From: an uncultured Kiritimatiellota bacterium
GTDB taxonomy: Bacteria; Verrucomicrobiota; Kiritimatiellia; RFP12; DVOR01
Direction: 5' to 3'
Length of the DNA stretch: 63,726 bases
Assembly: GCA_944391065.1 (NCBI GenBank)
Contig: CALXSH010000006.1
Span: 1-63,726 of the forward strand
Shown piece after piece: positions 3,262 through 28,927 of the stretch. Both the position numbers and the translations under genes were made by a program. Each line of letters starts with the position of its first letter. Positions within the stretch are counted from its first letter, which is position 1. The notes beneath the pieces were generated by a model. That model saw only the letters and a list, made by a program, of their open reading frames with translations. It did not search any database and had not been told where the DNA came from.

Positions 3262-3299
3262 GACCTTTTACACCTATCCCATTCAGAAAGGCATTCATC

Positions 3300-6859: not shown

Positions 6860-6862
6860 CCT

Positions 6863-8008: not shown

Positions 8009-8013
8009 TCCCC

Positions 8014-9159
8014 ATGGCCTCTAAATCCTCCATCCTCCGACAGTACGACCGCCTCGCGGCCGTCGCCGTGCTCATCCTGCTCCTTGCCTCGCTCGGCTAC
8101 CTGCTGCTCAAGGGCCTCGGCCGTCAGCAGGAGGTCAAGGAGTACGACGATACCCTCGGCATGCAGCAGCCGACCAAGGCGCAGTGCGTCCCCGTCGACC
8201 TGACGGCCGACGAAGCCCTCCTGACCCGCAATGCCGACCCCGCCGCCGCCAAGCTTCTGCTGCAGCAGGCCCCCGCCGGCCAGGCCGACCTCTTCAGCCT
8301 CGAACGCCGCCTCCTTTGCGTCAAGTGCGGCTATCCCATCCCCTTCGAAGCCTCCGTCTGCCCCTTCCCCGCGTGCAAGGCGGTCCAGCCCAAGGAGAAG
8401 AAGATTGACCTCTCCACCATCGACAGCGACGGTGACGGCCTCCCCGACCTCTGGGAACGCAAGTACGGCTTCGACCCCCAGAACGAGAAGGACGCCGACG
8501 AAGACGCCGACGGGGACGGCTTCTCCAATATTGAGGAATACGAAGCCAAGACCGACCCGAAGGATCCGGCTTCCCACCCCGGTTACGAGACCCGCATCGG
8601 CCTGGTCGACATCTCCGGCACCAAGGTCCCGCTGCGCGCCATCAACAAGATGAAGCTCCCGGCGACCCCCGAGCATCCCAACCGTCACCGCGTCACCTTC
8701 GTCCAGGTCGATCCTGACGGCCGCGTCGGCAATGTCTCCCTTTTCGCCGCCGACGGTGAGGAGATTAAGAAGGATGACGCCCTCAATCCCGTAAAGACCG
8801 GCTTCCGCTTCGTCCGGTACAACGAACTCCCGACCCGACAGATCAAGCCCGACCCCAAGAAGGGCGGCCTGCCGAAGTTCGTCAACGTCTCGACCATCAC
8901 TCTCGAGCGCGTTTCGGACAAGAAGCAGATCGACATTGTCTTCTGGGATCCCAATAATCCTGAATGGCCCGGCGAACCGTTGCTGGAGCTCCAGGCAACC
9001 GTTTCCATCGACCTCCCCGGTGCCGAAAACGTTACCGTGGCCAATGGCGGGACCTTTAAGGTCAAGGGTGAAACCTTCAAAATCCGCTCGATTGACCCCG
9101 AAAAGAAGATCGTCAAGGTCGAAAAAGTTGCCACGAAAGCGATTTTCGACTTGAAATAA
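8014..9159 (+). CDS. Amuc_1099-family pilus-like system protein with zinc-ribbon and calcium-type repeats
   Basis: 381 residues, 5 bp after the previous stop. One membrane segment near the N-terminus (about 14-33), then periplasmic. Four cysteines (102, 105, 116, 121) form a CxxC...CxxxxC zinc-ribbon-like knuckle. Two Asp-rich thrombospondin-type-3/dockerin-like repeats follow ('DSDGDGLPDLWERKYGFDP' at 137-155 and 'DADGDGFSNIEEYEAKTDP' at 164-182), probable calcium sites. The C-terminal half carries beta-rich segments ending 'GETFKIRSIDPEKKIVKVEK', reminiscent of PilP-type periplasmic proteins that bind the secretin. Role inferred: connector between the inner-membrane platform and the secretin encoded next. 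Confidence 0.75.
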   Translation: MASKSSILRQYDRLAAVAVLILLLASLGYLLLKGLGRQQEVKEYDDTLGMQQPTKAQCVPVDLTADEALLTRNADPAAAKLLLQQAPAGQADLFSLERRLLCVKCGYPIPFEASVCPFPACKAVQPKEKKIDLSTIDSDGDGLPDLWERKYGFDPQNEKDADEDADGDGFSNIEEYEAKTDPKDPASHPGYETRIGLVDISGTKVPLRAINKMKLPATPEHPNRHRVTFVQVDPDGRVGNVSLFAADGEEIKKDDALNPVKTGFRFVRYNELPTRQIKPDPKKGGLPKFVNVSTITLERVSDKKQIDIVFWDPNNPEWPGEPLLELQATVSIDLPGAENVTVANGGTFKVKGETFKIRSIDPEKKIVKVEKVATKAIFDLK

Positions 9160-9179
9160 TCGCAGTGCTGGTCTATACT
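9151..9179 (+). promoter_or_regulatory. Internal promoter before the secretin gene
   Basis: TTGAAA (9151-9156, overlapping the end of the upstream gene), 17-bp spacer, TATACT (9174-9179), 55 nt before the secretin ATG. It would allow the secretin to be made separately from the rest of the operon. Confidence 0.75.
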
Positions 9180-9234
9180 GACGTCACGATTTAGAAACGG
9201 GCAAGGCGCCCGACTTATGCGGAGAAAACGTGCT

Positions 9235-12200: not shown

Positions 12201-12486
12201 CACGCTGCTCTCCATCTACAACGGGGCGACCGTGGTCATGGGCGGCCTGATTACCGAAAACCGCGAGTCCTTTGAGGACAAGACCCCGATTCTCGGCGAC
12301 CTGCCCTTCATCGGCTTCCTCTTCCGCTCCGAGGGTGAGTGGAGCGAGAAGCGCAACCTCCTGGTCTTCCTCACCGCCCGTCTCGTTGACCCGGCCGGCC
12401 GTGCCATCCGCACTGCCACCGACGGCACGATGGGTGCCGCGGGCGATTTCGCCGGCGGCTCCTCGATGAGCGCCGCCGCGGAATAA
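9235..12486 (+). CDS. Secretin, Amuc_1098-family type IV pilus outer-membrane protein
   Basis: 1083 residues from ATG 9235, chosen because GGAGAA ends 8 nt before it; ATG 9217 is an alternative adding six residues. A signal peptide ends near 'ALAVVAQ'. Residues about 25-205 are an Ala/Glu/Pro low-complexity region. A helical, TPR-like region follows, then N-domains. The secretin domain shows 'EARFVEVSQTDLNSLGFEW' (about 704), 'MLSSPKVLVKSGQEAIF' (842), 'VMGGLITENR' (1001) and 'LPFIGFLF' (1023). Secretins form the outer-membrane channel for pili or type II secretion. Last gene of the operon, closed by a terminator. Confidence 0.92.
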   Translation: MTHFMRYTLLGTIVAGGALAVVAQDDIDALLGDLIMEPPAAEQELGEPVPADDSALADILAAEPEAAADDLLADMAAEEVPAEQAAPETVADAEVSVDEALDALTAVDTAAAEAAAEAQAAAEAEALAAAEAEALAAAEAQAAAEAEALAAAEAEAAEEDVAEAEAAEEAVAEAEPEVPAEEPAVEPEAVAEAAPAAEPAEPVDALLPSEVETVVTEEDRAFSELATLERIRQQGFDAYAQSCLDEAIAALNAQPQPPVGQAFDYYKGVIRKFEDAKTYFVERPDNVENRKLCDQGIRECVYRQANALFQLKQYPEALDLAQRAQKNGHKFGNELVARITAAMNVPKQYIPEAQYPVHADPDYRQARLERIDRFQRATVYFHLGNYDKALEQVDLILREDPDNESAISLRARIGERQHKRAEQLRASMHDTMIAQVSANWTPLGYLAADSDEISAPKVTSSGNEEVTEDKEAKAAAQRVYEKLDYIILPEFSVGAPNTLDDVVKFFAELSRTYDKPELPPEERGVSFVLNWGKPQAAAPVSDDPFASDSGSSGSGLPPIRSISLNYVTLREALNTVCTVTGAKYVIEGKTVMIVPTNYVDGKLEERWYNVLPEFADKMSGMSSDMGSSGGDSGGWGDDTSFSSGGGDTDSWKSVFSQFGVSFEGKASIAYFPQIGKIRVENTLENLARFESVLEKLNVTPFQIEVEARFVEVSQTDLNSLGFEWRLNQNITGTIGSGIDWASSAITGNSTGGDFAGGQDANGGYIFRRASRSTGTDNIGMHAGTINNGMRFLGDSSLAANRVNLGGATIAPDDTFATFSAVFGKLDMTMILHMLAQRSDTDMLSSPKVLVKSGQEAIFKVVTEWIYPTEFSVRELDMNNNSNNDSGGGTSIILPFMVEPQSFEKRDVGITMQVAPGISQEGQMIELSIGQLEVVEYLGDFDYGMEYPYSEIQTTGLPGLGDLGTITTQSEVKFFHIPMPQPKFHIRTISTLLSIYNGATVVMGGLITENRESFEDKTPILGDLPFIGFLFRSEGEWSEKRNLLVFLTARLVDPAGRAIRTATDGTMGAAGDFAGGSSMSAAAE
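9581..9690 (+). repeat. In-frame 66-bp tandem repeat in the secretin gene
   Basis: Sequence from 9581 recurs at 9647, offset 66 bp (22 codons), nearly identical over more than 35 bp. It encodes alternating AEA/AAAEAEAL runs predicted to be helical. Copy number could vary between strains. Confidence 0.75.
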
Positions 12487-13768: not shown

Positions 13769-14551
13769 TCAGGCCTTTTGGGCTTTGGCGGCTTTTTTGG
13801 CTGCCGGCTTGGCCTCAGGCTCCGCGTCGTGGCAGCCGTCGCCGTGCTCTTGCGCCTCGGCCAGGGCTTGGGCCTCGATGGCCGCGAGGCTCTTGGATTC
13901 GGCGGGGGTGAGGAGGCAGCGGACGTTGCCGACGCCGAGGCGCGTACAGCCGAGGGCGAGGTAGGTCTCGGCGTCCTGACGGGTGCGGATACCGCCGGAG
14001 GCCTTGACCTGAATCTTTCCCTTGGCGGCGGCGATCATGGTCTTTACGGCCTCAGGCGTGGCGCCGTGGGCGGCGAAGCCGGTGGAGGTCTTGACGAAGG
14101 CCGCGCCGGCCTTGAGGGCGCAGGCCGTACCCTTGCGGATCTCCGCGGGGGTGAGGAGGGCGGTCTCGAGGATGACCTTGACGGGGCGCGGCCAGACGGC
14201 GGTGACGACGGCGTGGATTTCGTCGACGGCGGATTCGGTGTCGCCATCTTTCAGGGCGGCGATATTGATGACCATGTCGATTTCGTCGGCGCCCTCAGCG
14301 GCGGCGAGCTGGGCCTCGGCGGCCTTGAGGGTAGCGTGGGTGTTGCCGTGGGGGAAGCCGACGACGGCGGCGATTTTCGTTTCGCTTGCCTCCAGGAGGG
14401 CGGCGGCGAAGGCGACGTCGCAGCTCTTCACGCAGAGGCATCCGACGCCGAGGACGTCGGAGAGCCAGGCGGCCTCCCGGAGGTCGTTCAGGGTGGCGTC
14501 GGGCTTCAGGATGGCGTAGTCGAGGGTGGCGAGGAAGTCTTTTGTCTTCAT
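13769..14551 (-). CDS. deoC: Deoxyribose-phosphate aldolase
   Basis: 260 residues, class I aldolase TIM barrel that cleaves 2-deoxyribose 5-phosphate to glyceraldehyde 3-phosphate and acetaldehyde. The Schiff-base lysine is Lys154 in 'FVKTSTGF'; Lys183 in 'VKASGGIRT' and Asp92 in 'EIDMVINI' complete the usual active site. 'VGFPHGN' is the phosphate-side signature. The last ~20 residues are an Ala/Lys tail ('AKPAAKKAAKAQKA') not normally part of DeoC. Its ATG overlaps the stop of the upstream mutarotase gene (ATGA), so translation is probably coupled. Confidence 0.93.
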   Translation of the reverse strand: MKTKDFLATLDYAILKPDATLNDLREAAWLSDVLGVGCLCVKSCDVAFAAALLEASETKIAAVVGFPHGNTHATLKAAEAQLAAAEGADEIDMVINIAALKDGDTESAVDEIHAVVTAVWPRPVKVILETALLTPAEIRKGTACALKAGAAFVKTSTGFAAHGATPEAVKTMIAAAKGKIQVKASGGIRTRQDAETYLALGCTRLGVGNVRCLLTPAESKSLAAIEAQALAEAQEHGDGCHDAEPEAKPAAKKAAKAQKA

Positions 14552-15423
14552 TTGAGTTCCGTGGGCTGGATCCTGAGGGTGAGGGTGTGGGCGCGGCCGG
14601 GGGCCAGCGTGATGGGCGTGAGGCCCTGCTGGTGGGGATTGGCCGGTTCGACGCAGAGAAACTTTTTCGACCCGCCGGGCGGGATGTCGCCGATGCCGTT
14701 CTCCAGCGGCGGCTGCCAGACGATGAAGGCCGAGGCGTCCTCGCCGATGACATTGAGGTTGCGCTCCATGATGGGGTCGCGGATGACGGCCAGGCCGTGC
14801 TCGGTGGGATGGATGACGTCGTAGGGGTCGGCGTCGGTGAAGGTCAGGGGTTTCTCGGCCGGCCCGATAAGGGTGACGGCCGTGGCGTCGGCGACGCGCA
14901 GATAGGCGTGGAGGGCCTCGCTGTAGGTGAAGGGCACGCGGTCAAGGTTGCGCGTCTGCAGGTCGACGCGGAGCGAATCGCCCACCGTCACGGTCATGGT
15001 CAGCTGATAGCGGTAGGGCCAGGCGGGGTGGGTGGCGTCGCCGTCATCGAGCTCCAGGGTGAGTTCGCAGTCGGCCGCGGCGTAGGAGCTGCCCGTGACG
15101 CGCCAGAGCGTGCGTCGCGCGAAGCCGTGGGTCTGAACGCCGGGCGGGAAGCCCTCCGGCGCGGATCCGAACCACGGCCAGCAGACGGGGATGCCGCCGC
15201 GGATGGCCTTGCCGTCGGCGTACTCGGCCGTGGGGCTGAGCCAGAGGGCGTCCAGATAGCCCTTGGCGCGGTAGGAGAGGACGTGGCCGCCGTAGACCGA
15301 AATCTCGCAATAGCCGTTGGGCGCAGCCAGGACGGCGATGGGGTGGCCGCCGGGACCTTCGCGGAAGACGATGCGGCCGGGCGCGCCGTAACGGGCGTTG
15401 AGTTCCTCGGGTGTCTGAGGCAT
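14548..15423 (-). CDS. D-hexose-6-phosphate mutarotase (YeaD family)
   Basis: 291 residues from ATG 15423, preceded by AAAGGAG; an in-frame extension to 15654 would run through the upstream gene and is rejected. The aldose-1-epimerase fold is shown by 'GGHVLSYRAKG', 'IRGGIPVCWPWFG', 'THGFARRTLWRV' (catalytic His) and the 'SEALHAYLRV' strand with its His; 'CVEPAN' near the end is also typical. These enzymes interconvert alpha and beta anomers of hexose 6-phosphates. Middle gene of the operon fmdB-like / mutarotase / deoC. Confidence 0.88.
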   Translation of the reverse strand: MPQTPEELNARYGAPGRIVFREGPGGHPIAVLAAPNGYCEISVYGGHVLSYRAKGYLDALWLSPTAEYADGKAIRGGIPVCWPWFGSAPEGFPPGVQTHGFARRTLWRVTGSSYAAADCELTLELDDGDATHPAWPYRYQLTMTVTVGDSLRVDLQTRNLDRVPFTYSEALHAYLRVADATAVTLIGPAEKPLTFTDADPYDVIHPTEHGLAVIRDPIMERNLNVIGEDASAFIVWQPPLENGIGDIPPGGSKKFLCVEPANPHQQGLTPITLAPGRAHTLTLRIQPTELK

Positions 15424-15452
15424 GGATGCTCCTTTCGCTGGGCGCGGGGCGC

Positions 15453-15704
15453 TCAGTAGAGTTTTTCGAAGGCACCCTGGTCGACGCGCTTCAGTTTGTG
15501 GAAGCCGGCGGCCTTGGCGCGGTCGTCGAGTTTGGACTTGCTCCGGCCGATGGCCGGGGCGGAGATGAGTTTGACCACTTCGGCGCCGCAGTAGGGGCAG
15601 GTCCTGAGCGGCTCCTGGGTCAGCGAACGGACGGCTTCGAACCTGTCGCGGCAATAGGCGCAGGCGGCCTCGGGGTTTTTGGCGCGGTAATCGTAAACCG
15701 GCAT
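15453..15704 (-). CDS. FmdB-type zinc-ribbon protein
   Basis: 83 residues from ATG 15704 (MPVYDYRA), with GGAGAA just upstream on the minus strand; a longer start at 15737 lacks such a site. The FmdB-family pattern is present: an aromatic 'PVYDYRAK' start, a first pair CxxC ('CAYC') and a second pair CxxC ('CPYC') before 'GAEVVKLISAPAI'. The second half is charged and helical. FmdB-like proteins are small regulatory or zinc-binding proteins of unclear function. First gene of the minus-strand operon, 29 bp before the mutarotase gene. Confidence 0.78.
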   Translation of the reverse strand: MPVYDYRAKNPEAACAYCRDRFEAVRSLTQEPLRTCPYCGAEVVKLISAPAIGRSKSKLDDRAKAAGFHKLKRVDQGAFEKLY

Positions 15705-15828: not shown

Positions 15829-15910
15829 CAAAAGTGGGCGACAAACGAGTCAAAAGTGGGCGACAAACGAGTCAAAAGTGGGCGACAAACGAGTCAAACA
15901 TGGGCGATGT
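15829..15910. repeat. Three perfect 22-bp tandem repeats plus a degenerate fourth
   Basis: Units at 15829-15850, 15851-15872 and 15873-15894 are identical; each starts 'caaaagtgggcgacaaac' and ends 'gagt'. A fourth copy starting at 15895 diverges after a few bases. The array lies about 80 bp upstream of the prepilin promoter. On the minus strand each unit presents a TTGACT, so regularly spaced -35-like hexamers or protein-binding sites are possible. The spacing is two helical turns, as in operator or iteron arrays. Confidence 0.9.
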
Positions 15911-15975: not shown

Positions 15976-16005
15976 TTGCAAGCCCGTCCGTTTTTGGGGT
16001 ATACT
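15976..16005 (+). promoter_or_regulatory. Promoter of the prepilin / giant-protein operon
   Basis: TTGCAA (15976-15981), 18-bp spacer, TATACT (16000-16005), 24 nt before the ATG at 16030. Confidence 0.75.
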
Positions 16006-16029: not shown

Positions 16030-17178
16030 ATGACACAGATTTTCGCCTTCTTCCGTCGTGTCGTCCGTGGCACGCGTTTTGGCCGCCGTCATGGGTTCAC
16101 GATGATTGAACTTCTGGTGGTGATTGTCATTCTGGGTGTTTTGGCCACGGCGATGGTGCCGGTGGTGGGCCGTTTTCTCTCGGTCGGCGACGACGCCGAG
16201 AGCCGCAACAATCTGCGCCGTCTGGGCGCGGCGGCCATTGCGTACCGCAGCGACCATGACAACTGCTACCCCTCCGCGGGCGGTGTCTGCTTTGAATTTA
16301 TCTGGGATCCCGCCGGCAAGCGCGAGCGGAACTACGGCCGCTCCGCCGGCTGGGTCTACTTCGCCCACTCGGGCTGCCCGCGCGAGAACAATCCCGACGA
16401 CGTCTGCGACGGCAATCCGCTGTCGCAGGGGTGCGGTCAGATCAACTCCGACGACGGCACCGGGTGCGCGGCCAACCGCTATGTCAATGAGGCCGGCATC
16501 TGCACCTGCTTCAAGGCGACCGCCAACGAAGGCGGCATCTCGCCGCAGCCCTCCGGCTGGTACGTCTCCGGGGCCTCCTCGGCGCACGCTCCCGCCGAAG
16601 TTGACATCATGAACGGCGCCATCTATCCCTACATGGGCGGGGACACGCGCGCCTATTCCAACGGCGCCTTCGCCGAACGCGCCCGCGAGAAGCTCGGCAT
16701 CGCCGAGGACAAGGTCGTCCGCGCCTACGCGATGAACGTCATCACCGGCGCCGACGAGGACATCTACGACGTCTACAAGCAGTACAACAAGACCGGCGGC
16801 TCCGACGGCAACTCCGCCATCCGCTATGGCCTCGCCTCGCTTTATCCCAATATCGACAGCTCGCGCTCCAGCACGCGCGAAGCCCTCCCCGCCAAGACCG
16901 TCCTCTTCGTCGAGCTCGATCTGGACGACTCCGAGGTTAAGTCTTCAGGTTCCCTCTCCGGTGACCAGGTCTGGGACTGGGACAAGGGCAACGAGTCGAT
17001 GGGTTTCAATCATGAGAACAACGGGATCATGGAGGCGCACGTCTGCTTTGCCGACGGCCATGTCGAAGCCATCCGCGATCCCTCCCGCGATCCGACCTCT
17101 CCGGACACGGGGCGCCGTCAGCGACTCTCGAAGTGGTACGGGTCCGGCGGCCTGAACAGCAGCGCTTCCTTGGAGTAA
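16030..17178 (+). CDS. Prepilin/pseudopilin-like protein with N-terminal methylation motif
   Basis: 382 residues from ATG 16030, preceded by GAGAGG. A basic leader of about 22 residues precedes 'GFTMIELLVVIVILGVLA', the class III signal: cleavage after Gly, N-methyl-Phe, Glu at +5 and a long hydrophobic helix. The remainder is a large Cys-containing domain, far bigger than a structural pilin. The C-terminal 'AHVCFADGHVEAI' is of the type seen in the large H-x9-DG/DUF1559-like pseudopilin families abundant in PVC bacteria. The tail is Ser/Gly-rich. Likely needs a PilD-type peptidase, not in the window. It sits 4 bp before the giant-protein gene, so the two are almost certainly co-expressed. 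Confidence 0.85.
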   Translation: MTQIFAFFRRVVRGTRFGRRHGFTMIELLVVIVILGVLATAMVPVVGRFLSVGDDAESRNNLRRLGAAAIAYRSDHDNCYPSAGGVCFEFIWDPAGKRERNYGRSAGWVYFAHSGCPRENNPDDVCDGNPLSQGCGQINSDDGTGCAANRYVNEAGICTCFKATANEGGISPQPSGWYVSGASSAHAPAEVDIMNGAIYPYMGGDTRAYSNGAFAERAREKLGIAEDKVVRAYAMNVITGADEDIYDVYKQYNKTGGSDGNSAIRYGLASLYPNIDSSRSSTREALPAKTVLFVELDLDDSEVKSSGSLSGDQVWDWDKGNESMGFNHENNGIMEAHVCFADGHVEAIRDPSRDPTSPDTGRRQRLSKWYGSGGLNSSASLE

Positions 17179-17182
17179 GGAC

Positions 17183-20100
17183 ATGATGAGACGATTTCTT
17201 GCGGCATTCGTGCTGTCGGCAGGCCTGCTGAGCGGGTCTGCCGCTCTGGCACAGCTGACATTCCGTTATTCGGTGACGGGCCTGGAGCCCGCCGGAGAGA
17301 ATACCTACACGCTGACCCTTGAGACCAGCGCGCTGGGCGCCTCGAGCAGCCCCCCCTCCTCGCTCCCCAATGCCAACCCGGTCACCCTGCTGTGGCGCCG
17401 TCACAACGCGACCGATGACGCGGCCGCCTGGAACGGGTCTCTGCTGACACCGGTGCGCGGTTGGGAGCAGGTTTCGGCCGCGGAGACCGGCCGCGACCCC
17501 AGGCGCTGGTCCCGCGTCGACGCCGTCACGCTCACCGACGACCCCGCCGTCAGCGATGAGCTCATCGATGCCCTGCGCGGCGGTCTGGCGACCTACGAAT
17601 GGTACGTCTCCGCCGCCGGCCTCGGCGGCAGCTCCCAGATTTCCGACATTCAGGATCACGGCCGCAAACAGAATTTCGACGACGCCACCCTCTGGACCGG
17701 TGCGGCGGCGGGTGACCGCAAGCCTGCCGACCTCGCGGCTCTCGGTGAGGCCCGCAGCGTCAGCCTGAAGTCGATGGGCAGTGCTCCCGGCGGTGTCACC
17801 TGGGAGATTCGCAACGGCTCCGTCGGGACCAACGGCGCCTCCGGCGGCGGTGCCCTCGGCGCCCAGCTGCTCAATGTCGTCGACCTCGGCGACAACTACG
17901 CGACGGCCGCCCAGATTGTCTCGCCCTACTATCCCGACGGCGTCTCCGCGGTCGTCTTCGAAGCGGCGGCCACGCGGACCGATGACCTCGGCGTGCCGCT
18001 CCTCTTCCAGTACCGCACGCAGGGCTCGACGGACTGGATCACCCTCCCGCTGACCGCCGAAAATACCGCGGTCGCCACCACGGACGGCGCTTCCGTCGCC
18101 TTTCAGCCCGGCGCTGCCGTTCAGGGCAGCGTGATTCTCTCCGACGCCTTTCTCCGCTACACGGTTTCCCTCCCGCCGACCGCGCTGCCGGTGAACAGCG
18201 GCGCCCGCTTCCGCATCGTCCGCGCGGCCTATCAGCCCATCGCCTCCGAATACGAATACGAGACGACCTGCGTCATCCGCAATCTCCGCGTCCGCTCCGC
18301 GGCTCCCTCGGCGACCCTCGCCGCCGCGCCGACCTTCTCGGTCTCCGGCGCCGCGACCGGCTCCGAACCCTCCGGGCTCGATGACTTCACTGTCTCCTTC
18401 GCGCTGAGCGGCATCTCCTCCGATCCTGCTCCGACCGGCTACACCGGCCGCCTGACCGTTGCCCGCCGCGGCGACGACCTGACGGCGCAGCCCACCACGC
18501 TGGACATGGAGGTCACCTCCTCCGCCGGCGTGACCCGTCTGAGCACGACCTTCCTGGCGCGCGAACTCTCCTACAACGACGCGGACAACCGCCCCAACGT
18601 CGAGAGCGGCGCCTTCTTCACCCAGAGCGGCAGGACCGTCGGCCTCCTCCCCAATGTCTACGACCTCTCCGTCGCACTTGGCGTCCGGGGATCCTACCTC
18701 GCCGGGCGCACGGCCCTCAACGAACGCGAGACCGTCACGACCGTCTACGACGCCATTCCCGCCGCCGACGGCGATACCGCCGCGCCTTTCACCCTCGAGG
18801 TCCGCGAAAACCAGACGAAGCAGCGCGCCGTAGACCTCATGGTCTCCGTCCTGGATGAGACGGGGTCCCACGACCTCATCTCCACGCTGGCCTTCGCCTG
18901 CGAACCGGTCTCCGAGGAGGGCGCCTCCGATACCTGGCGCGTCCTGCTGCCGAAGGAGCTCCCCGAGGAGACTTACGCCGGCTACAGCTATGCCTGGGGC
19001 ACCAACAGGACCGTGACCGACAGCTCCGGCTCCTACCAGACCGTCAATCCCGATACCCTCGACAGCTCGGTCATCGCGGTCAAGATCCGCGTGACCACCG
19101 TCGGGGCCGACGGCTCCTTCTCCTACAGCTGGTACGGAGCCGAAGCCGCCGCCGAGGGCGCCGCGACCCCGCCCGAATCCGTCACGCTCGCGCAGGCCGT
19201 CCGCAAGGACCTGACCAAGGGCACCACCAACGGCGGCGACGATGTGAAGGCCTTCGGCATTGACGCCGCCTCTGTGACCCATCCCACCGTCCTGGCCGAA
19301 ATCGATCTCTCCGCCAATGGCGTCATCACCCTGACCTCCGCCGCGGAGCAGGACTTCAATACCTGGGTCGCCACCTCCGACGATTTCTCGGAATCCTCCT
19401 ATTCCGACTCCATGGTCTACGCCCGCACCAACTTCGACGCCCGCACCGGACTCGACGCCGACAGCGGCCGCTATGAGGTGCTCGGCGGGTGGTATCCCGA
19501 CGAAGGCCCCTTCGCCGGCGAGAACGCCCTCGAGGATGACTTCGCCGTCGGCCGCGCCGGCTTGGGCGAGAACGGTTCCGCCACCGGCGGCACCGTCGGT
19601 GCCGATGCCGCCCTCTACTATCCCGGTACCGCCACGGACGCCAATAACCTCTTCGCCTCCTGGGGCGCCTCCCATGCCCCCGGTCAGCCGTATTTGCTGA
19701 TTCGGGACGCCAACGACTACGATACCCGTACGGAAAACATGGCCCTCGGTCCCGGCGCCGAACTGCTCCTCTCCCGCGGCACCGCCATGGACAGCCAGAC
19801 CCGCTGGCTCCCCGACGCCCTGGTCCGCCTCCGCTCCAATACCGAGATGGGCCCGAACTACGCCGCCGACTCCCTGGTCACCCTCAACGGCATCGGCCAG
19901 GTCACCTTCACCATGGCCCTGTCGATTCCCTACGACATCCAGGGCCGTGTCGGCCTCTATCCGCTCGACGCGGGGGACAACTTCATGTCGGTCGCCCGCG
20001 GCGTGCAGTCGCGCATCCGCTTCACCACCCTGCCCGCCTCCTCGCTGCCCGGCTACTCCGTCTCCCTCTACCTGGCCAGCCAGTCGGGCACGACGGTTTC

Positions 20101-23100
20101 TGGAATCTATGAGGCCCGCTTCACCCAGATCTCCGACTTCTCGACCCGCGACGGCCAGCGTCCCGGCAATCAGGTGATCTGCGAACTCTATCGCTGGAAT
20201 TCCTCCGGCGATGCCTACGCGGCCACCCGCCTGCCGGTCTCCGGCACCGGCACCGTGAGCTCCCAGTACTTCGCCACCGCCGGTTCCCTCTCCGGCGCGA
20301 CCGTCGCCTTCTGGGTCGGCGCCGACGGCAAGCTCCGGGTCGGTTTCCGCTCCAATACGGCCGAGAGCGTCAGCAACGCGAACTTCACCTCCGCCAACCA
20401 AATCTTCACCAATCCGGGCACGGCCAACCTCTCCGTCGCCCTCGGTTCCGCCGAGTGCCTCCCCGTCTTCGACGCCGTGAGCTACACCACCGCGCCCAAG
20501 GACGGCGGCCTGACGGGAGATGATTGGAAGGGGTTCACGGGGGATACTTGGCTGATTGGCAATGAGGCGGCCTGGAATCCCTCCGCGCAGAGCACGTCGC
20601 TCAGCGTCACCCGCAGGACCCCCTCCACGGATACCGCCGGCGCCGTCCTGATTGAAGCCGTCGACAACGGCCTCGTCATCAACCGCAAGCGCGAAACGGC
20701 CGGGATGACCCCAAAGACCGTCTCCGTCGTCCTCGGCAACACCGGCGCGCAGCTCCGGATCCGCCCCGACGCCAATTCCAACGTCCTGATCGACAGCGTC
20801 CGCGTCACCTCCTGGTGCGGCGATGACAGGCTCCGCAACGGCAGCTACGTGCCGACCTACACCGACCCCGGCTTCCCCGGCGTCGCGGAGGGCAATACCG
20901 GCTTCGCCGCCGTCGGCGCCTGGATTACCCCGAAGTACACCGCCGAGCTCAATGGCTCCCAGGCCGGTTACTCCGGCGACCAGGTCATGCTGCTCCAGTA
21001 CTCCCGCCGCAACGAATCCTGCGGCACAGAGGGCGTCCTCAATGGGGTCCGCACCACGAATAACGGTCTGGCCGTCTACATGCCCTATACCAACAACGGC
21101 ATCGGCGCGGTCAACCTGCGCTACATGATCCCCGCGACGAACCCGGCGACCGGCCTTCCGAATCCCGACGTCGAGGTTCTCCTTCAGTACACCAGCTCGA
21201 GCTCCTACGTGAAGGACTTCCTCGGCACGCCCGGCGGTCCCTTCGGCGCCAACGCCTGGCAGCCCGCCTCTCAGGTCAAGCGCCTCTCCGCGACGGATGG
21301 CGAATGGCGGTCGGCCGCCATCGTGCCCGACCCCAACCTGCTTCCTGCGAACTTCTCCAACGGCTACATCCGTCTGGTCATGGTCACGACCAACCGCGGC
21401 GAGACCGACCCGATGGTCTACCTCGACCAGATCTTCCTGACGCAGAAGGCCGCGGCCTCCTCGGCTGTCTGGTACGGCACCAATACCAAGCTGACCTCCA
21501 CCCCGGCCGACGACCTCTACTGGAAGGACCGCGAGCCCAATAGCTCCCAGTCGCGCGACACCCCCTTCGCCGAGCGCTCCCGCCTGACCGCGGCCATGCA
21601 GTTCAATGACGTCAGTCAGGCCGACGGCACCGATTCCGCGGGCGACACGGCCGTCAGCGACACCTTCGCCATGACGGCTCTCGACTCGCCCTATATGGAC
21701 AAGGGTATCGGCCAGGTCACCTTCGCGGCCCGCCGCCTGGAGCCCGGCGCCTCCGTGCGCGTCTATGTCGCCGTCTCCCTGGACGGTGAGAACGTGCCGC
21801 GCAACGAGCGGACCTACCGCGTCGTCCACAGCGTCGACGTCCGCGGCGAAATCTGGCAGCCCTTCTCCCTCGATCTCGCCGGCATCTCCGCCTGGCCCGA
21901 TGACGGCTCGACCTTTGACTGCACGCAGGCCCGCTGGCTCCGCCTGATGGTGGGGCAGGAGGACAATCCCGATGCCGTGCCCGGAAACGAGGACGCCCAG
22001 AACCGCACCGGCCGCATCCTTGTCGACCGCGTCGTGGTCTCCGACCCCGTTGTCCCGACGGTCGATGCCGCGAGCATTGTCTTCGCCAATGGCGACAACG
22101 ACTTCGCCGGCCGCACCTCGCCGCTCTCCCAGCCCGTCCATGGGGCGCCTGAGGTCCGCGTCCGCGTGACCCTCGAACCCTACGACGCCGACCGCATCGA
22201 TTCCGATTCCGTCCGCGTCTTCCTCTCCTGCATCCTCTCGACGCCCGGCGCCGCGGATGGGAGGCTGGCGGCCGTCACCGACGGCAATGTCTCCTACACC
22301 GACGTGCTGGGCAATGACGTCTCCGGCTCCGCCGACGCGCCGATCTACGTCTGGAATGACCTGGAGAACTGGCCGGTCAGCAAGTGGCTGACCCCCAATC
22401 TTCCCTCCGACGAGGTCTCCGCCGATCCGGCCGACGTCGCTGGCGTGGTGTCCGGCGCCCTGACCATCGAGCTGACCCGCTCGGGTGACGGCAGCTCCGT
22501 CTACGAAGGCACGCTCCCCGACGAAATTGCCACGGCCGACGTGAATTCGCTGGTCCGCTATGCCGCCTGGTTCTCCTACGTCGTCACCGACGATGCCGGC
22601 GGGGGCGACGGCACGGGCACGCGCCGCACCATGGCCATGACCGCCACCTCTTACCGCGAGTTTCCCTGGTACTTCCCGCGCAGCCTCAATGAGGAGAACC
22701 GCTCGCGCTACGAGGCGGCTTCCGGCGCGGAGTCCGCCGGCGCGGCCTACTTCTCGCCCTACTACTGGGTCTATGAGACGGTGCCCGGCGAAGTCTTCGT
22801 GAATGAGTTCAACCTCAATGACGGCACGCAGATCCCGACGGATACGAAGGAGCACGTCTTCGTCGAAGTCTGCGCCCCGGCGGAGACCTCGCTCGGCGGC
22901 TGGCGTCTGGGTCTGACGGTCAATACGTCGACGACCCTCGACACCCTCAATCCGATTCCGACCCTGACCGATCCCGAGGGCGGCAAGCTGCCCACCCCGG
23001 ATGTCGGCGCCGTGCCTGCTGCGCGCAATCCCGCGATCGCTTCGGACCGCGCCTTCCACACCCTCTTTGCGAGCCGTCCGTCCTTCTATCAGACGGTGAC

Positions 23101-26100
23101 TGCGGGCGGCGGGGAGACCTCCGCCCTCGTCGGCAGTGCGAAGAATGCCGGTATCGGTTCGGAAATGGGCAGCTTCAGCCCCTCCAACCGAATCTCTGTG
23201 GCCAACAGCATCCTCCTCTACCGCCCGACCGGCGGCGCCGAGCACATCCTGGTCTACTCCAACGGCGATGCCTCCGGTAATGCCGCGACGATGCAGGGCG
23301 AGGTCACGAAGGTGATGGGCTACTACAAGGCCGGCTACAGCGGCCACGGCTTCGACTTCGACGACGCCACCGGCGCCTGGTCTCAGACCTTCGCCAGCGG
23401 CGACTGGGCCAAGAAGCTCGAGAGCGAGACCAATCCCGACACGACCCTGACCATCCTGAAGGCCAAGTCCGACGGCTCCCGTCTGGTCTCCGTCCTGGTG
23501 AAGCCGGACGCGACCAATACCGACGAGGCGAACAACGCCAACTTCATGTTTGACTTCGCCGGCGGCGACGACGCGAGCTCCACCGCCAACTCCTTCTCCA
23601 CCATCGATATGGGTACCGTCTGGGTGCAGACCGACAATGCTGTCAGCGCCAAGGCCACTGCCGGCCCGACCGATCTCTCCGACCTTTTCCAGACGACTTG
23701 GCCAGGGTACAATCCGACGGAGCGCGCGCGCTCCGGCGACGATACCCATACCATCATGGTCACGCCCCGCCAGATCAACGTCAATCAGTACCTGATCCCC
23801 TACGAGGGCATCCGCCAGATCAGCGTGACCTCGAATATCGCGGGTCTCGGCTCCCACCTGCTCAGCGTCACGTCCACGAATACGACCCGTTACGGCGGTC
23901 TGAGTGCCGCGACCTGGTCCGTTCCCGAGACGGCCTACGATCTGGAGCTGACCTACCGTCCGGTGGTCTATCAGAAGCTGACCGGCCTCACGGTCTCCTT
24001 CGTCGACCGCGTCTCCCGCGAGACCGTCACGGATGAGGCTACCGTCCGCACGCTCCTGGCCGACGCCCTGGATGCCGACTTCGGCATTGCCTCCTTCGAC
24101 GCGGGCCTGGTAACCCTCACCATCCCGGACGCTGCCTTCCAGGATGACGGGTCCGTCACGGTGCCCTTTGACGTCTTCATCACGGACGGCGGGACGACGA
24201 CGACCTACAATCCGACCTTCACCGCCACCTTCACGCTGGATCCCGAGACGGTCGGCGGCGGCATTACCTCGGTCCGCACCTACTGCGGCGACGGCGCCGA
24301 ACTGCCGGGATACGCCAAGTATCAGCCTTGGTGGGGCAGCGCCTTCGGCTTCGAGGTCACCTATGACACCGCGGAGGACCTGCCCGCTGCGGCTCAGCCG
24401 CGCGGCGTCCTGGTCGTCTATCCCGACGGCGCCCATCGCCCTGACAACTGGGATACCGCATCGGACGCCTACGCTTGGGCCGGCCTGAATGTCATGACCG
24501 GAATGCCCCTCGATCAGGCACTGGCGTGGCTCAACAGCATGTCTGTCGAGGACGCCGCCGCCGGGACCATTGCCGGCGGCGTGACGCTCGGCGCGCGCTT
24601 CGCCCGCATCGACGGTGCCGCGGACGGCCGCATTGCTTCGGCTAACGTGGTGCCGATCCTCGGCCGTGAATATGAGGCTTCCGCTCCGACCGTCGCCCCG
24701 GCCGAACCGCCCGTCCCCTACATCGTGTGGGGTATCTACACCGATTCGGCCGCGAATGACCGTGGCGGCATGGATGAGGTCACCTTCGTCCTGCCCCAGA
24801 AGCTCGGTGCCGACAGCACCGTCTTCACGAAGCCCGACTGGTACCGTGGCCCGGACTACGCTGTCGAGAGCGCCGGCGTCCCGTACTTCCACCTCTACTC
24901 CACGCCGCCGCAGTCGGCGTGGGTGAGCGAACTCGACCTGGACGGTACGGCGGGTGCCGCTGCCCCTGTCACCGGGCAGTCCTTTGTCGAAGTGGCGATG
25001 CCGAAGCTCCGTGAGGCGCTGACTGAGGCCGGCGTTCCTCAGACGGACCCGAAGGCCTGGTCGGTCGCCTTCTGCGGCGACGACGGTGTGGCCGAAGCGA
25101 CGGTCTCTCTGCCTGAGACCGGAACGGACTCGGGCATCCCATCGTACGGTTACCATGTGGTCACACCGTTGCCCGGGAGCGTGGATTTTGCGGCCCCGAC
25201 GGCCGCGGTCCTGATTCGTCCCGCCGGCATCGCCGAGGGCGGCGTCTGGACGCAGCGCAGTGACGCCGTCAACCCCGGCACGCGCGTGGAGATCCCGGAT
25301 GCGGCCAAGAGCACTTGGCTGGCCCCCGCTGCCGACGAGGTCGGCGCGGATGGCGCGACCGTGATCGGCACCTACATCTATCCCGGTGTGGCCGACGGTC
25401 CCGAGGGCTCCGTCCAGCTGGTCGGGCAGCGGGTCCCCGTTTCCGTCACCGATCAGATTACAGCCTACTACCTCTCTTCCGATGCGTCGCTCCGCGATGA
25501 GTGGGCCTATCAGACGGTCGTGACCCCCGGCGCCGACAACAGCGAGGACGGCTCCACCGTCACGCCGGAGCCTCCGGCCTGGAACCAGGTCACCCTCGTC
25601 TCCCGCATGCGCAACGCGGCGACCGGCTTTGAAGCCTCCGAGTGCGGTTACTGGACCGAGGGCCTCTTCCTCTCGGCCTCCGCCGGCAATCCGGGCTCGC
25701 AGGTCTTCCGCCAGACCCGTGAGGGTGCGAACTGGATTTACGGCAATGGCGCTTTCAGTCTCTCCTACCGCAACCGCTCCGGATACGTCTTCGGGTCGAT
25801 AGCCCTTCCGCCGGACATGGTCGGCCGCGTGATGCTCTTCGGCGGCACCAGCCGCATCGTCGAGCGGGCCGACCTGGAGCGCCGCATCACGGAGTACAGA
25901 AATCTCGCCGCCGTCAACCCCGACGCGAAGGAGACGACGTGGCTGAGTCTGGGCGGTCTCTGCGACGTCGACGCCGACCGCGGCGTGATCACCTTCAAGC
26001 CCGACACCGTCTTTGACAAGACCGACGGGACGACCTTCGCCGACCTGGAAAACTACTATGTGACCCTGGTCATCGTCGAGGAGCCGATTTCCGCCGTCAG

Positions 26101-28789
26101 CGAAATCACGGTCTCGATGAACCGCGGCAACGTCGTGCCCGGCCTCTGGCTCTATACGCAGTCCTTCTTCGGCTGGGAGGCGGAGAACGATCCGGATCCT
26201 GACATGGCCAAGGGCGGCACTGCGTTTTACAAGCCGATCTGGACCGATGCCGACGGCAACGCGGACGGTGAGTACAAGGATGTCCACGGCTGGGTCTATC
26301 AGCCGCGTGTCGGCGACACGCTCGGCATGACGGCGGTCATCGTGCCCGAGGAGGGCCTGACGGCCAACGCCTCGCTCACGGCCGCGCAGCTGCGCGAGCG
26401 CCTCACGGCGCCCTCCACCGAGACTTCCGTCCGTCCCTTCCTGGTCTGGAACCTGATTCCCGCCTCGCGGGTCAATACCGATACCGGCAGCGACGCCGCG
26501 GCGGACTTCTTCTCGACCTGGAATACCGACTCCTGGCTCGGCCGCGACCCGCGCGCAATGCTCCTGACGGATCTGCGCCGGAACCTGGGCAACGTCACCG
26601 GCAGCCTCAACGGCACCTTCACCCGGGCCGGGGTCGTCCCGATGATTTATGATCGCGGGACGGCGGACAATCCGAAGACCGACCCGGTGACGAGCCGCGA
26701 CGCGCTTTTCTTCCGCACGATGACGCCGGAGGAATTCAGTGCCGCCGCGGCGGCCTCGGCGGCGACGGGTATCTCGCTCACGTCCGACGACACGCTCGCG
26801 CCCTTTGAGCAGAGCATCGTCATGAAGAATGACACCGAGAACCGTGACTGGACGGACGGCGCCGTCCTCCGCTTCGCCATCGTCGTGGCCGATGCCCGCA
26901 CCGGCACGATTTACGACTGGCAGTCCGTCTCCAACTTCACGAGCGACAACATGCCGGCCTACTGCCCGTGGTATCTGCCGGCCGAGACGGCCGACCTCAA
27001 TACGATTTCGCGTTCCCGCGGACGCGGCGAATCGCCCTACGTCTGGGTCTACGAGGTGCCGCAGGGCGTGGCGTGGATCAATGAGTTCCGTCCTTTCCGC
27101 GGCGCGGACGACAACGCCGTTCCGGCCTTCGAGCTGGCCATGTACCGCTCTGCGGTCGACGTGGACACCACGGCAGACTCCACGCGTTATCTGCCCGAGT
27201 GGTCGCTGGACGGCTGGGAGCTGGTCATGCAGAAGGCCCCCCTGCCCAGGCTTAAGACGCCGTATATCTCCGGTCAGTCCTTCGATGTCAGCACGGCCGA
27301 GCTCGTCTCCGAGGTGGAGTGGGAGGATGTCGGCTCCGTGGAGCTCCGGGGCTGGATTCCCTCCCAGCGCCTCGGCCACAATCCGGACGACCCGGCTTAC
27401 GCGGACGGCGGCGACCCTTGGGGCGGCCTGGACTTCTATCCGATTACCTCCGACGCGGCTTGGCTGAACAAGGGCCAGACGCCCGCTTGGATTGCCTACG
27501 ACGGGACGGTCGGCACGGCCGGGACCACGGATCGCTTCAACTATCTGCGGATCTCCGAGTCGGCCTTCCCCTATCAGGCGCCTGAGGGCGCTTACGCCGA
27601 CGGCGTCATCTACGCCCTCAGCCTGCGCCGCAACAACGGTGTCGTCGAGGACCGCGTCCTCTTCTGCTTCGAGAAGGTTGAGGACCAGCCGGTGGCGCTC
27701 ACGCACTGGGGCTCCCGCATGAAGGTGGCGCTGGCTGCCGAGAACCGCCGTCTCACCTCCGCCGGTCTGGTCCGCGGACTGACCGACAAGGCGATGGCGG
27801 AGAGCGATGGCAGGGCCACGGCGCAGTTCCTGCGTCACCGCGAGACCGACTCCGCCCCGTATGCGCTCTATTGGGCTTACGACCGGATGGGGAACCAGAT
27901 TTCGACGCTGCCCGGTCCGAACGCAATCGACCTCGGCACCGGCGATGTCGGCGCGCAGCCCAACAGCTCCTATGAGCCGAGTGCCAATCAGTCGCGTTAC
28001 TACACCCTCGGGGCACAGCTCCAGGGCGCGGCGGCCGACCTGCTCATGACGCTCAACGGGGCGGAGAGTTCCGCCGGTGCCAACGGCATGGTCCTCGGGT
28101 CCGCCCTCTCGGGCTCGGCCTACACGCTCAGCGTGACCGGGTGGGACAGCGATTGGTTCCGCTTCGGCGGGGCCACCCGCAACGGCGAGTCCGTCTCCGT
28201 GACGCCCGCGAAGACCTACGTCTCCGGCGGTCTCAACACACTCGCCGAGACCGACAGCCTGACCTTCGGCGGCACCCTCGAGGGCGATACCGAGTATGTC
28301 ATCAGCTTCCTCTACACCGATGCCGCCCGCAGGCTCGCCGACTCCGGCGTCCTGGACGGTTCGGCCGACGACGGCTTCCTGGCGTGGCTGATGCAGGCCG
28401 CCCCCGACGCGGTGATTGCCGCGCAGGGCGACGGCGTGACCGCCGCCGAGAAGTACTGGGTCGGCCTGAGCAGCGCGGACGTCGATGCCTCCGATGTCGA
28501 GCTCAGTGTCCGCTCGGTCGCGTTCGACACCGAGGCTTCCACCGACGGGTCCGCGGCGCTCTCGACCTTCGCCTTCTCCTTCACCAAGGGCGGCGAACCG
28601 ATTGAGACGCTGAGGGGCGACGGCCGTCTGGTCCTCCTGGGCAAGGCGGAGCTCGACGGGCCGTGGAGCTATGTCACGACGCTCAGCCCAGACGATATCG
28701 CCAGGGAGCGCTACTACGTCATCGATACCGACCTGCGCTTCTTCAAGGCCGTCCTCATCTCCGCCCGCGACACGGACGCGCTGAAGTAA
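17183..28789 (+). CDS. Giant secreted modular protein of unknown function (3868 residues)
   Basis: The protein opens with a signal peptide ('FLAAFVLSAGLLSGSAALA') and has GGAG/AAGG upstream. No transmembrane segment or cell-wall anchor is obvious. It looks beta-rich, built of Ser/Thr/Asp/Gly-rich domains. The N-terminal half carries repeated beta-sandwich-like phrases 'GIGQVTF' (about 903 and 1508) and 'GIGAVNLRYMI' (1306). The C-terminal half shows a module recurring every ~710 residues, each with an aromatic lead-in then 'VFVNEFNLND' (1871), 'AWVSELDLDG' (2579) or 'AWINEFRPFRG' (3297), resembling the first strand of a lamin-tail domain; the first copy continues 'HVFVEV...LGGWRLGL'. The end, 'ERYYVIDTDLRFFKAVLI', is a compact beta motif. 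Probable surface adhesin, sheath or matrix protein exported with the adjacent prepilin; no enzymatic motif seen. Confidence 0.85.
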   Translation: MMRRFLAAFVLSAGLLSGSAALAQLTFRYSVTGLEPAGENTYTLTLETSALGASSSPPSSLPNANPVTLLWRRHNATDDAAAWNGSLLTPVRGWEQVSAAETGRDPRRWSRVDAVTLTDDPAVSDELIDALRGGLATYEWYVSAAGLGGSSQISDIQDHGRKQNFDDATLWTGAAAGDRKPADLAALGEARSVSLKSMGSAPGGVTWEIRNGSVGTNGASGGGALGAQLLNVVDLGDNYATAAQIVSPYYPDGVSAVVFEAAATRTDDLGVPLLFQYRTQGSTDWITLPLTAENTAVATTDGASVAFQPGAAVQGSVILSDAFLRYTVSLPPTALPVNSGARFRIVRAAYQPIASEYEYETTCVIRNLRVRSAAPSATLAAAPTFSVSGAATGSEPSGLDDFTVSFALSGISSDPAPTGYTGRLTVARRGDDLTAQPTTLDMEVTSSAGVTRLSTTFLARELSYNDADNRPNVESGAFFTQSGRTVGLLPNVYDLSVALGVRGSYLAGRTALNERETVTTVYDAIPAADGDTAAPFTLEVRENQTKQRAVDLMVSVLDETGSHDLISTLAFACEPVSEEGASDTWRVLLPKELPEETYAGYSYAWGTNRTVTDSSGSYQTVNPDTLDSSVIAVKIRVTTVGADGSFSYSWYGAEAAAEGAATPPESVTLAQAVRKDLTKGTTNGGDDVKAFGIDAASVTHPTVLAEIDLSANGVITLTSAAEQDFNTWVATSDDFSESSYSDSMVYARTNFDARTGLDADSGRYEVLGGWYPDEGPFAGENALEDDFAVGRAGLGENGSATGGTVGADAALYYPGTATDANNLFASWGASHAPGQPYLLIRDANDYDTRTENMALGPGAELLLSRGTAMDSQTRWLPDALVRLRSNTEMGPNYAADSLVTLNGIGQVTFTMALSIPYDIQGRVGLYPLDAGDNFMSVARGVQSRIRFTTLPASSLPGYSVSLYLASQSGTTVSGIYEARFTQISDFSTRDGQRPGNQVICELYRWNSSGDAYAATRLPVSGTGTVSSQYFATAGSLSGATVAFWVGADGKLRVGFRSNTAESVSNANFTSANQIFTNPGTANLSVALGSAECLPVFDAVSYTTAPKDGGLTGDDWKGFTGDTWLIGNEAAWNPSAQSTSLSVTRRTPSTDTAGAVLIEAVDNGLVINRKRETAGMTPKTVSVVLGNTGAQLRIRPDANSNVLIDSVRVTSWCGDDRLRNGSYVPTYTDPGFPGVAEGNTGFAAVGAWITPKYTAELNGSQAGYSGDQVMLLQYSRRNESCGTEGVLNGVRTTNNGLAVYMPYTNNGIGAVNLRYMIPATNPATGLPNPDVEVLLQYTSSSSYVKDFLGTPGGPFGANAWQPASQVKRLSATDGEWRSAAIVPDPNLLPANFSNGYIRLVMVTTNRGETDPMVYLDQIFLTQKAAASSAVWYGTNTKLTSTPADDLYWKDREPNSSQSRDTPFAERSRLTAAMQFNDVSQADGTDSAGDTAVSDTFAMTALDSPYMDKGIGQVTFAARRLEPGASVRVYVAVSLDGENVPRNERTYRVVHSVDVRGEIWQPFSLDLAGISAWPDDGSTFDCTQARWLRLMVGQEDNPDAVPGNEDAQNRTGRILVDRVVVSDPVVPTVDAASIVFANGDNDFAGRTSPLSQPVHGAPEVRVRVTLEPYDADRIDSDSVRVFLSCILSTPGAADGRLAAVTDGNVSYTDVLGNDVSGSADAPIYVWNDLENWPVSKWLTPNLPSDEVSADPADVAGVVSGALTIELTRSGDGSSVYEGTLPDEIATADVNSLVRYAAWFSYVVTDDAGGGDGTGTRRTMAMTATSYREFPWYFPRSLNEENRSRYEAASGAESAGAAYFSPYYWVYETVPGEVFVNEFNLNDGTQIPTDTKEHVFVEVCAPAETSLGGWRLGLTVNTSTTLDTLNPIPTLTDPEGGKLPTPDVGAVPAARNPAIASDRAFHTLFASRPSFYQTVTAGGGETSALVGSAKNAGIGSEMGSFSPSNRISVANSILLYRPTGGAEHILVYSNGDASGNAATMQGEVTKVMGYYKAGYSGHGFDFDDATGAWSQTFASGDWAKKLESETNPDTTLTILKAKSDGSRLVSVLVKPDATNTDEANNANFMFDFAGGDDASSTANSFSTIDMGTVWVQTDNAVSAKATAGPTDLSDLFQTTWPGYNPTERARSGDDTHTIMVTPRQINVNQYLIPYEGIRQISVTSNIAGLGSHLLSVTSTNTTRYGGLSAATWSVPETAYDLELTYRPVVYQKLTGLTVSFVDRVSRETVTDEATVRTLLADALDADFGIASFDAGLVTLTIPDAAFQDDGSVTVPFDVFITDGGTTTTYNPTFTATFTLDPETVGGGITSVRTYCGDGAELPGYAKYQPWWGSAFGFEVTYDTAEDLPAAAQPRGVLVVYPDGAHRPDNWDTASDAYAWAGLNVMTGMPLDQALAWLNSMSVEDAAAGTIAGGVTLGARFARIDGAADGRIASANVVPILGREYEASAPTVAPAEPPVPYIVWGIYTDSAANDRGGMDEVTFVLPQKLGADSTVFTKPDWYRGPDYAVESAGVPYFHLYSTPPQSAWVSELDLDGTAGAAAPVTGQSFVEVAMPKLREALTEAGVPQTDPKAWSVAFCGDDGVAEATVSLPETGTDSGIPSYGYHVVTPLPGSVDFAAPTAAVLIRPAGIAEGGVWTQRSDAVNPGTRVEIPDAAKSTWLAPAADEVGADGATVIGTYIYPGVADGPEGSVQLVGQRVPVSVTDQITAYYLSSDASLRDEWAYQTVVTPGADNSEDGSTVTPEPPAWNQVTLVSRMRNAATGFEASECGYWTEGLFLSASAGNPGSQVFRQTREGANWIYGNGAFSLSYRNRSGYVFGSIALPPDMVGRVMLFGGTSRIVERADLERRITEYRNLAAVNPDAKETTWLSLGGLCDVDADRGVITFKPDTVFDKTDGTTFADLENYYVTLVIVEEPISAVSEITVSMNRGNVVPGLWLYTQSFFGWEAENDPDPDMAKGGTAFYKPIWTDADGNADGEYKDVHGWVYQPRVGDTLGMTAVIVPEEGLTANASLTAAQLRERLTAPSTETSVRPFLVWNLIPASRVNTDTGSDAAADFFSTWNTDSWLGRDPRAMLLTDLRRNLGNVTGSLNGTFTRAGVVPMIYDRGTADNPKTDPVTSRDALFFRTMTPEEFSAAAAASAATGISLTSDDTLAPFEQSIVMKNDTENRDWTDGAVLRFAIVVADARTGTIYDWQSVSNFTSDNMPAYCPWYLPAETADLNTISRSRGRGESPYVWVYEVPQGVAWINEFRPFRGADDNAVPAFELAMYRSAVDVDTTADSTRYLPEWSLDGWELVMQKAPLPRLKTPYISGQSFDVSTAELVSEVEWEDVGSVELRGWIPSQRLGHNPDDPAYADGGDPWGGLDFYPITSDAAWLNKGQTPAWIAYDGTVGTAGTTDRFNYLRISESAFPYQAPEGAYADGVIYALSLRRNNGVVEDRVLFCFEKVEDQPVALTHWGSRMKVALAAENRRLTSAGLVRGLTDKAMAESDGRATAQFLRHRETDSAPYALYWAYDRMGNQISTLPGPNAIDLGTGDVGAQPNSSYEPSANQSRYYTLGAQLQGAAADLLMTLNGAESSAGANGMVLGSALSGSAYTLSVTGWDSDWFRFGGATRNGESVSVTPAKTYVSGGLNTLAETDSLTFGGTLEGDTEYVISFLYTDAARRLADSGVLDGSADDGFLAWLMQAAPDAVIAAQGDGVTAAEKYWVGLSSADVDASDVELSVRSVAFDTEASTDGSAALSTFAFSFTKGGEPIETLRGDGRLVLLGKAELDGPWSYVTTLSPDDIARERYYVIDTDLRFFKAVLISARDTDALK

Positions 28790-28807
28790 GCCCGGCCCCC
28801 GGACCTC

Positions 28808-28847
28808 AACGGCAGGCGGCTGCCTTCGGGCGGCCGCCTGCCGTTTT
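28808..28847 (+). terminator. Terminator of the prepilin / giant-protein operon
   Basis: A 17-bp stem (28808-28824 with 28829-28845, including one T-G pair) capped by a TTCG tetraloop and followed by TTTT. Confidence 0.9.
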
Positions 28848-28927
28848 GACGGGTAGGGCCTTCCCCGGCACGTGACCGGCCTCACCCCCGCGTGCCGCGC
28901 GGCGGGGTGGGGGCGCGGCGGGCGCCG

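Follow-up and report, generated by a model that had tools for sequence, protein, structure and literature searches.

A large prepilin and a giant exported protein are encoded side by side in an uncultured, gut-type Kiritimatiellota bacterium; the pair is conserved in relatives, and the genome context of the giant's family across the class supports a link with the machinery of type IV filaments. Our preferred reading, to which we give an even chance, is that such a machine displays or exports the giant as a binding protein, and that the prepilin is a subunit devoted to the giant, for its coupling or at the tip. Kiritimatiellota occur widely in the guts of animals and in marine sediments and, to our knowledge, little is known of how they attach to their substrate. 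A single-copy pair that has been passed down across families and is linked with one of the several filament machines of the genome offers a concrete candidate both for surface attachment and for the machine involved.

The window, i.e., the whole stretch of 63,726 nucleotides that was analysed, contains the following elements relevant to the pair:

5177-12486, + strand: operon of PilM, two further genes and a TPR/secretin gene, 3.5 kb 5' of the prepilin gene (in four other families, orthologous genes are neighbours of giants)
15976-16005, + strand: putative sigma-70-type promoter, TTGCAA-18-TATACT (9/12 positions; consensus match only)
16030-17178, + strand: prepilin-type protein P0001, 382 aa (sequence, PF07963/TIGR02532, orthologues 5' of the giant in relatives)
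17183-28789, + strand: giant exported protein P0002, 3868 aa, ~400 kDa (sequence, orthologues, profile comparison)
17183-17254, + strand: predicted type I (Sec) signal peptide of P0002, residues 1-24 (sequence; N-terminus alike in all orthologues)
20765-21982, + strand: tandem predicted jelly-roll modules, residues ~1195-1600 (poor model, weak PDB fold matches)
22784-23287, + strand: lamin-tail-like module 1, residues ~1868-2035 (profile self-comparison)
24911-25252, + strand: lamin-tail-like module 2, residues ~2577-2690 (profile self-comparison)
27065-27667, + strand: lamin-tail-like module 3, residues ~3295-3495 (profile self-comparison)
28580-28774, + strand: conserved C-terminal domain of the giant, residues ~3800-3864, GDG.LVLLGK..L..W..V....FF.A.L (orthologues)
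28808-28845, + strand: TTCG-capped hairpin 3' of the giant gene, probable terminator (17 pairs, UUCG loop, -39 kcal/mol, z = -4.5)

The initial annotation had described a class III prepilin of 382 residues followed, after a gap of 4 nt, by a 3868-residue protein with a signal peptide, and its coordinates proved exact. It had also placed the two genes between one promoter and one TTCG-capped terminator. The promoter-like site, a consensus match, ends 24 nt 5' of the prepilin start, and the hairpin 3' of the giant was missed by a stricter terminator scan because only four T's follow it. Both signals have a candidate in the sequence, and the two genes would probably be read as a single transcript. 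Further 5' of the promoter, a 22-bp unit (AAAAGTGGGCGACAAACGAG plus 2 bases) is repeated head to tail in three exact copies at positions 15830-15893; the unit is absent from every other locus examined that does not overlap this site, relatives included, and is possibly a regulatory or mobile repeat.

The leader of P0001 is of class III (RRHG↓FTMIELLVV, cut after Gly22, with Glu at +5), and is followed by a hydrophobic helix and by a large C-terminal domain with the motif GFNH...HVCFADGHVE. The protein passes the cut-offs of PF07963 (N_methyl; 32.6 bits vs 21.2) and TIGR02532 (31.7 bits vs 16.3). Its matches to PF07596 (DUF1559; 16.9 bits, cut-off 23.3) and to TIGR04294 (H-X9-DG; 16 bits, cut-off 19), the latter at the expected C-terminal place, are weak. 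By the NCBIfam equivalogs it is not a member of GspG/H/I/J (TIGR01710, 29.4 vs 88.85; TIGR01708, 23.7 vs 80), the matches to these two models being restricted to the N-terminal part, and it lies far under the cut-offs of the Verru_Chthon models (TIGR02599, 17.2 vs 256.5 bits; TIGR02596, 15.3 vs 70).

The initial annotation had made its reading of the two genes as a unit depend on their conservation in relatives, which was indeed found. The prepilin is present in 15 of the 16 other genomes of the genus, at 45-59% identity, and the only genome that lacks it is half-complete. Wherever the contig continues (14/14 same-genus cases), a giant frame lies directly 3' of the prepilin, within a few nucleotides. 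The intact giants of the genus (3828-4026 aa) are 33-37% identical to that of the window in one colinear, full-length alignment with many invariant residues. Profile searches recovered a homologous giant in 76 of the 95 genomes of the order that were searched, a number that takes in the genus; more than one copy in a genome is exceptional. In one other family of the order (f3), a prepilin precedes the giant at 12 loci, by 8-104 nt and once with an overlap; the giants at these loci have 1824-2796 aa, and the prepilins bear the same C-terminal signature (GFNH...HV.FADGHVE). Since the f3 giants align with the window giant over 1410 columns (E = 9.8e-60, profile to profile), and since P0001 is the best match among the source genome's own prepilins for all 12 of the f3 upstream prepilins, the pair is most likely ancestral and was not assembled twice.

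The prepilin is neither obligatory nor universal, because no such gene was recognised directly 5' of the giant in 22 of the 34 outgroup loci with the start of the giant on the contig. Paralogues may be among these giants. Giants of one other genus (g11, L098 and L104 included) reach 2900-3850 aa without an adjacent prepilin. In two genomes of the window genus, the gene for a further large exported protein, with the predicted signal peptide MKSKSNLLIAMGAVLGLF, starts ~1-2 kb after the giant (L044, from 18065; L045, from 18462) and is incomplete, as it runs to the end of the stretch examined.

The giant itself has no Pfam, NCBIfam or PADLOC match. The initial annotation had seen no known toxin, protease or S-layer protein in it, and this stands: no characterised family covers most of its length. 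Profile self-comparison revealed a module in three copies ~720 residues apart (around 1868, 2577 and 3295), whose pattern, WINEF...FVE...L.GW...RP.G, recalls the lamin tail domain (LTD). Related modules with a weaker signal lie in the N-terminal half, around 165-330 and 1200-1560. A search of the source genome with PF00932 (LTD) did not hit the giant's modules; the same model matches one orthologue weakly (6e-4) and is well over the cut-off in two class-level members of the family (L139 and L141). One of these two also carries F5/8 type C modules over the cut-off, and PA14 is over the cut-off in another class-level member. Matches of single orthologues to other Pfam families (MtrF, PEX6, SURF1, CHAP and others) were scattered and were taken as chance.

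Profile searches against PDB sequences returned no match. Structure prediction of both proteins with AlphaFold, suggested as an approach by the initial annotation, yielded poor models, each from an alignment of three rows. The model of P0001 (pLDDT 40) gave no match in a fold search. That of P0002 residues 1195-2045 (pLDDT 36) is best in the two jelly-roll stretches, where pLDDT locally reaches 75; a fold search with it retrieved only jelly-roll-type structures from the PDB, the closest being tandem CBM22, MAM, reelin and the gingipain cleaved-adhesin domain. These serve as a lead only because the TM-scores are low. Given the poor models, the domain assignments in P0002 depend on repeats in its sequence and on fold matches that are weak. 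Class-level members of the family bear LTD, F5/8 type C or PA14 domains, and the structural matches of the giant are glycan-binding or adhesin jelly rolls. The module content of the giant suggests a binding protein more than a fibre that assembles itself. The initial annotation had offered a fibre, a sheath or an adhesin; of these, neither the fibre nor the sheath is supported by what was observed.

We then considered the family across the class. Of 289 genomes sampled across the phylum, a profile of the f3 giants matches 55, all of which belong to the same class. The class-level set comprised 20 loci (18 outside the order and 2 from a further family within it), and 20 random regions of the same genomes served as control, as a check on the readings of chance adjacency and of a lone substrate. 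Four to eight pseudopilin genes lie within a few kb of the giant at 8/20 loci, vs 1/20 of the random regions; the eight loci span six families, and two of the loci come from one genus. These clusters include genes for GspF and for GspG-like, PilV/GspI-like, Verru_Chthon-C/GspJ-like and GspK/Verru_Chthon-A-like proteins. Their GspF is 54-77% identical to the GspF encoded on one contig of the source genome (C7), vs 21-32% to the two other GspF compared. On that contig (L167, 6727-16290), GspF is followed by a run of prepilins and by a GspK/Verru_Chthon-A-like protein of 1116 aa; the cluster is probably the main pseudopilin operon of the organism.

Orthologues of the PilM of the window operon (5177-12486) lie 1-4 kb from the giant at four loci of four families, vs 0/20 of the random regions. 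Two of these loci also have a detectable secretin, and in the four families the operon is divergent from the giant rather than in tandem with it. At one locus (L130), both a pseudopilin cluster and the PilM operon flank the giant. In all, one or the other adjoins the giant at 11/20 loci vs 1/20 random regions (Fisher p = 6e-4), a modest count from loci that are not all independent, the weaker ones (L136-L142) being homologous at the level of modules only. Two separate components of the same type of machine are in agreement here, which supports, by genome context, a link of the giant to pilus or type II secretion machinery, as the initial annotation had drawn in general terms from the pseudopilin and the secretin.

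More specifically, the initial annotation had tentatively proposed the secretin encoded 4 kb upstream as the export machine. This arrangement is not conserved near the pair in the genus: the PilM-secretin operon is absent from the flanks examined at 17/17 same-genus loci (15 genomes), and the secretin lies 54 kb from the pair in one genome; in three genomes of genus g11 it lies ~20 kb from the giant on the same contig. What stands is the adjacency of orthologous operons to giants in four families. The source genome has nine matches to T2SSE-type ATPases and secretins at five places. One gene of the window operon (8014-9159) encodes bacterial TSP3 (calcium-binding type) repeats, which are unusual for the PilN/PilO position, and is kept in the orthologous operons.

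How does the pair compare with known systems? In the Verru_Chthon cassette of the PVC group (TIGR02596, TIGR02598-TIGR02600), a large protein A is encoded with the prepilin-like proteins B, C and D. The resemblance of the pseudopilin clusters beside giants in the sister families to these models is weak and N-terminal, but the window giant has no match to protein A (TIGR02600), P0001 matches C and D in the leader region only, far under the cut-offs, and the window has one prepilin and one giant. With the H-X9-DG/DUF1559 prepilins of the PVC group (TIGR04294, PF07596), P0001 shares the leader and a large domain with a C-terminal H...ADGHVE-type motif; it differs by its scores, which lie under both curated cut-offs, by the longer H...DG spacing and by its fixed partnership with a giant. 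Pseudopilin clusters of type II secretion systems (T2SS; GspF, GspG-K) adjoin the giant family in several families and have a counterpart on contig C7, whereas in the window genus the giant adjoins its own prepilin and not a cluster. Bacterial LTD and CBM/jelly-roll extracellular proteins resemble the family in that some members match LTD, F5/8 type C or PA14 and the window giant has three related modules, but this giant lacks a Pfam match and differs in size and partner. There is also a likeness in gene organisation with the PilY1/FimU-PilV-PilW-PilX tip complex of type IVa pili, where a large protein with a type I signal peptide is co-encoded with pilin-like proteins with class III leaders. 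PilY1 is a proposed tip or priming adhesin, a role that the window giant may share. The window giant lacks the PilY1 beta-propeller domain (P0002 matches no Pfam model, and none of 12 orthologues matches PilY1), is 3-4 times longer, appears to be made of lamin-tail-like and jelly-roll-like modules, and has a single H-X9-DG-like prepilin as its companion where PilY1 has four minor pilins. By its family matches, the pair is neither PilY1 nor a Verru_Chthon cassette, and its prepilin is not a GspG-J. In our reading, it would work like a minor pilin-adhesin pair.

Under the display reading put forward at the outset, prepilin and giant would form one functional unit. The giant, presumably a non-enzymatic protein with multiple jelly-roll-like and lamin-tail-like binding modules, would cross the inner membrane via Sec and then be taken over by a pseudopilus machine (secretin, PilM/GspL-like protein, GspF, pseudopilins and GspK-like protein), so as to cross the outer membrane or be held at it. 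The prepilin would be a minor pseudopilin with an unusually large globular domain that binds the giant and brings it as far as the secretin or across it. The giant would most likely sit at the tip of a short pseudopilus, displayed as an adhesin, as PilY1 is on minor pilins. PilY1 primes the filament, sits at its tip with the minor pilins and, in a published description, is analogous to the substrates of T2SS (PMC7541494). For the unit proposed here, we infer the export route, the contact between prepilin and giant, the tip position and the ligand, probably glycans. We found no description of a prepilin-giant pair in Kiritimatiellia in the literature (open-licence PMC full text). More tentatively, and with doubt somewhat outweighing belief, we suggest an ancient, undescribed display system of Kiritimatiellia in which the prepilin mounts a binding protein of 200-430 kDa on a T2SS/T4P-like machine, forming a second, unrelated PilY1-type tip and the main surface adhesin. 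If the display reading holds, giant proteins borne at the tip of pili or on pseudopili would have evolved outside the PilY1 family too.

The main rival, which we consider rather unlikely, is that type II secretion frees the giant to the medium or matrix like any ordinary substrate, the prepilin being a substrate-specific pseudopilin that helps in its loading and not its carrier on a filament. The clusters that adjoin giants in other families are GspF-GspG/H/I/J/K-like, as such a role would suggest; the numbers of T2SSE-type ATPases and secretins in the source genome fit as well, and an analogy with T2SS substrates has been drawn for PilY1 itself (PMC7541494). On the other hand, an ordinary substrate would not need to be maintained, once per genome, together with a prepilin of its own, and no catalytic domain was detected in the giant. 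Sequence alone does not separate a free substrate from a displayed one.

It is less probable still that the giant has a structural role at the surface, as an S-layer, a sheath or a matrix scaffold, and that the prepilin is merely co-transcribed with it or serves another pilus. Size, modularity and single copy would suit a structural protein, as would the existence of giants without an adjacent prepilin, but neither the giant nor its orthologues match any S-layer or anchoring family in Pfam or NCBIfam. The ancestral, orthologous pairing in two families, together with the separate association with T2SS/T4P genes elsewhere, also argues against this explanation. We give little credence to the idea that the giant is some other sort of adhesion or effector protein, such as a polymorphic toxin or an extracellular enzyme, that happens to use the pseudopilus. 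The window proteins have no enzyme, toxin or PADLOC match, the trusted orthologue matches include no enzyme or toxin family, and the conserved C-terminus of the giant is unlike that of polymorphic toxins, even if the lack of any annotation over the giant leaves room for another activity. Finally, GC-rich DNA keeps long frames open on both strands, but a chance adjacency or a spurious giant frame is practically discounted, being refuted by a frame kept over 3800-4000 codons at ~35% identity with many invariant residues, and paired with a prepilin at 14/14 same-genus loci and at 12 loci of another family.

An open frame of 3952 codons does lie antisense to the giant (window 17027-28885, - strand), as a result of the high GC at third codon positions of GC-rich coding DNA. 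The GC content by codon position in the + frame of the giant (0.62/0.52/0.87) fits coding on the + strand only, and this frame is kept by 13 orthologues; together they rule out the antisense frame as a real gene and make it a trap for gene callers. Another gene of the - strand, at 14548-15654, resembles an aldose 1-epimerase by eye. Its homologues also occur near giants at three other loci (L071, L082 and L133; 34-50% identity), and it may be there by chance or as a conserved neighbour.
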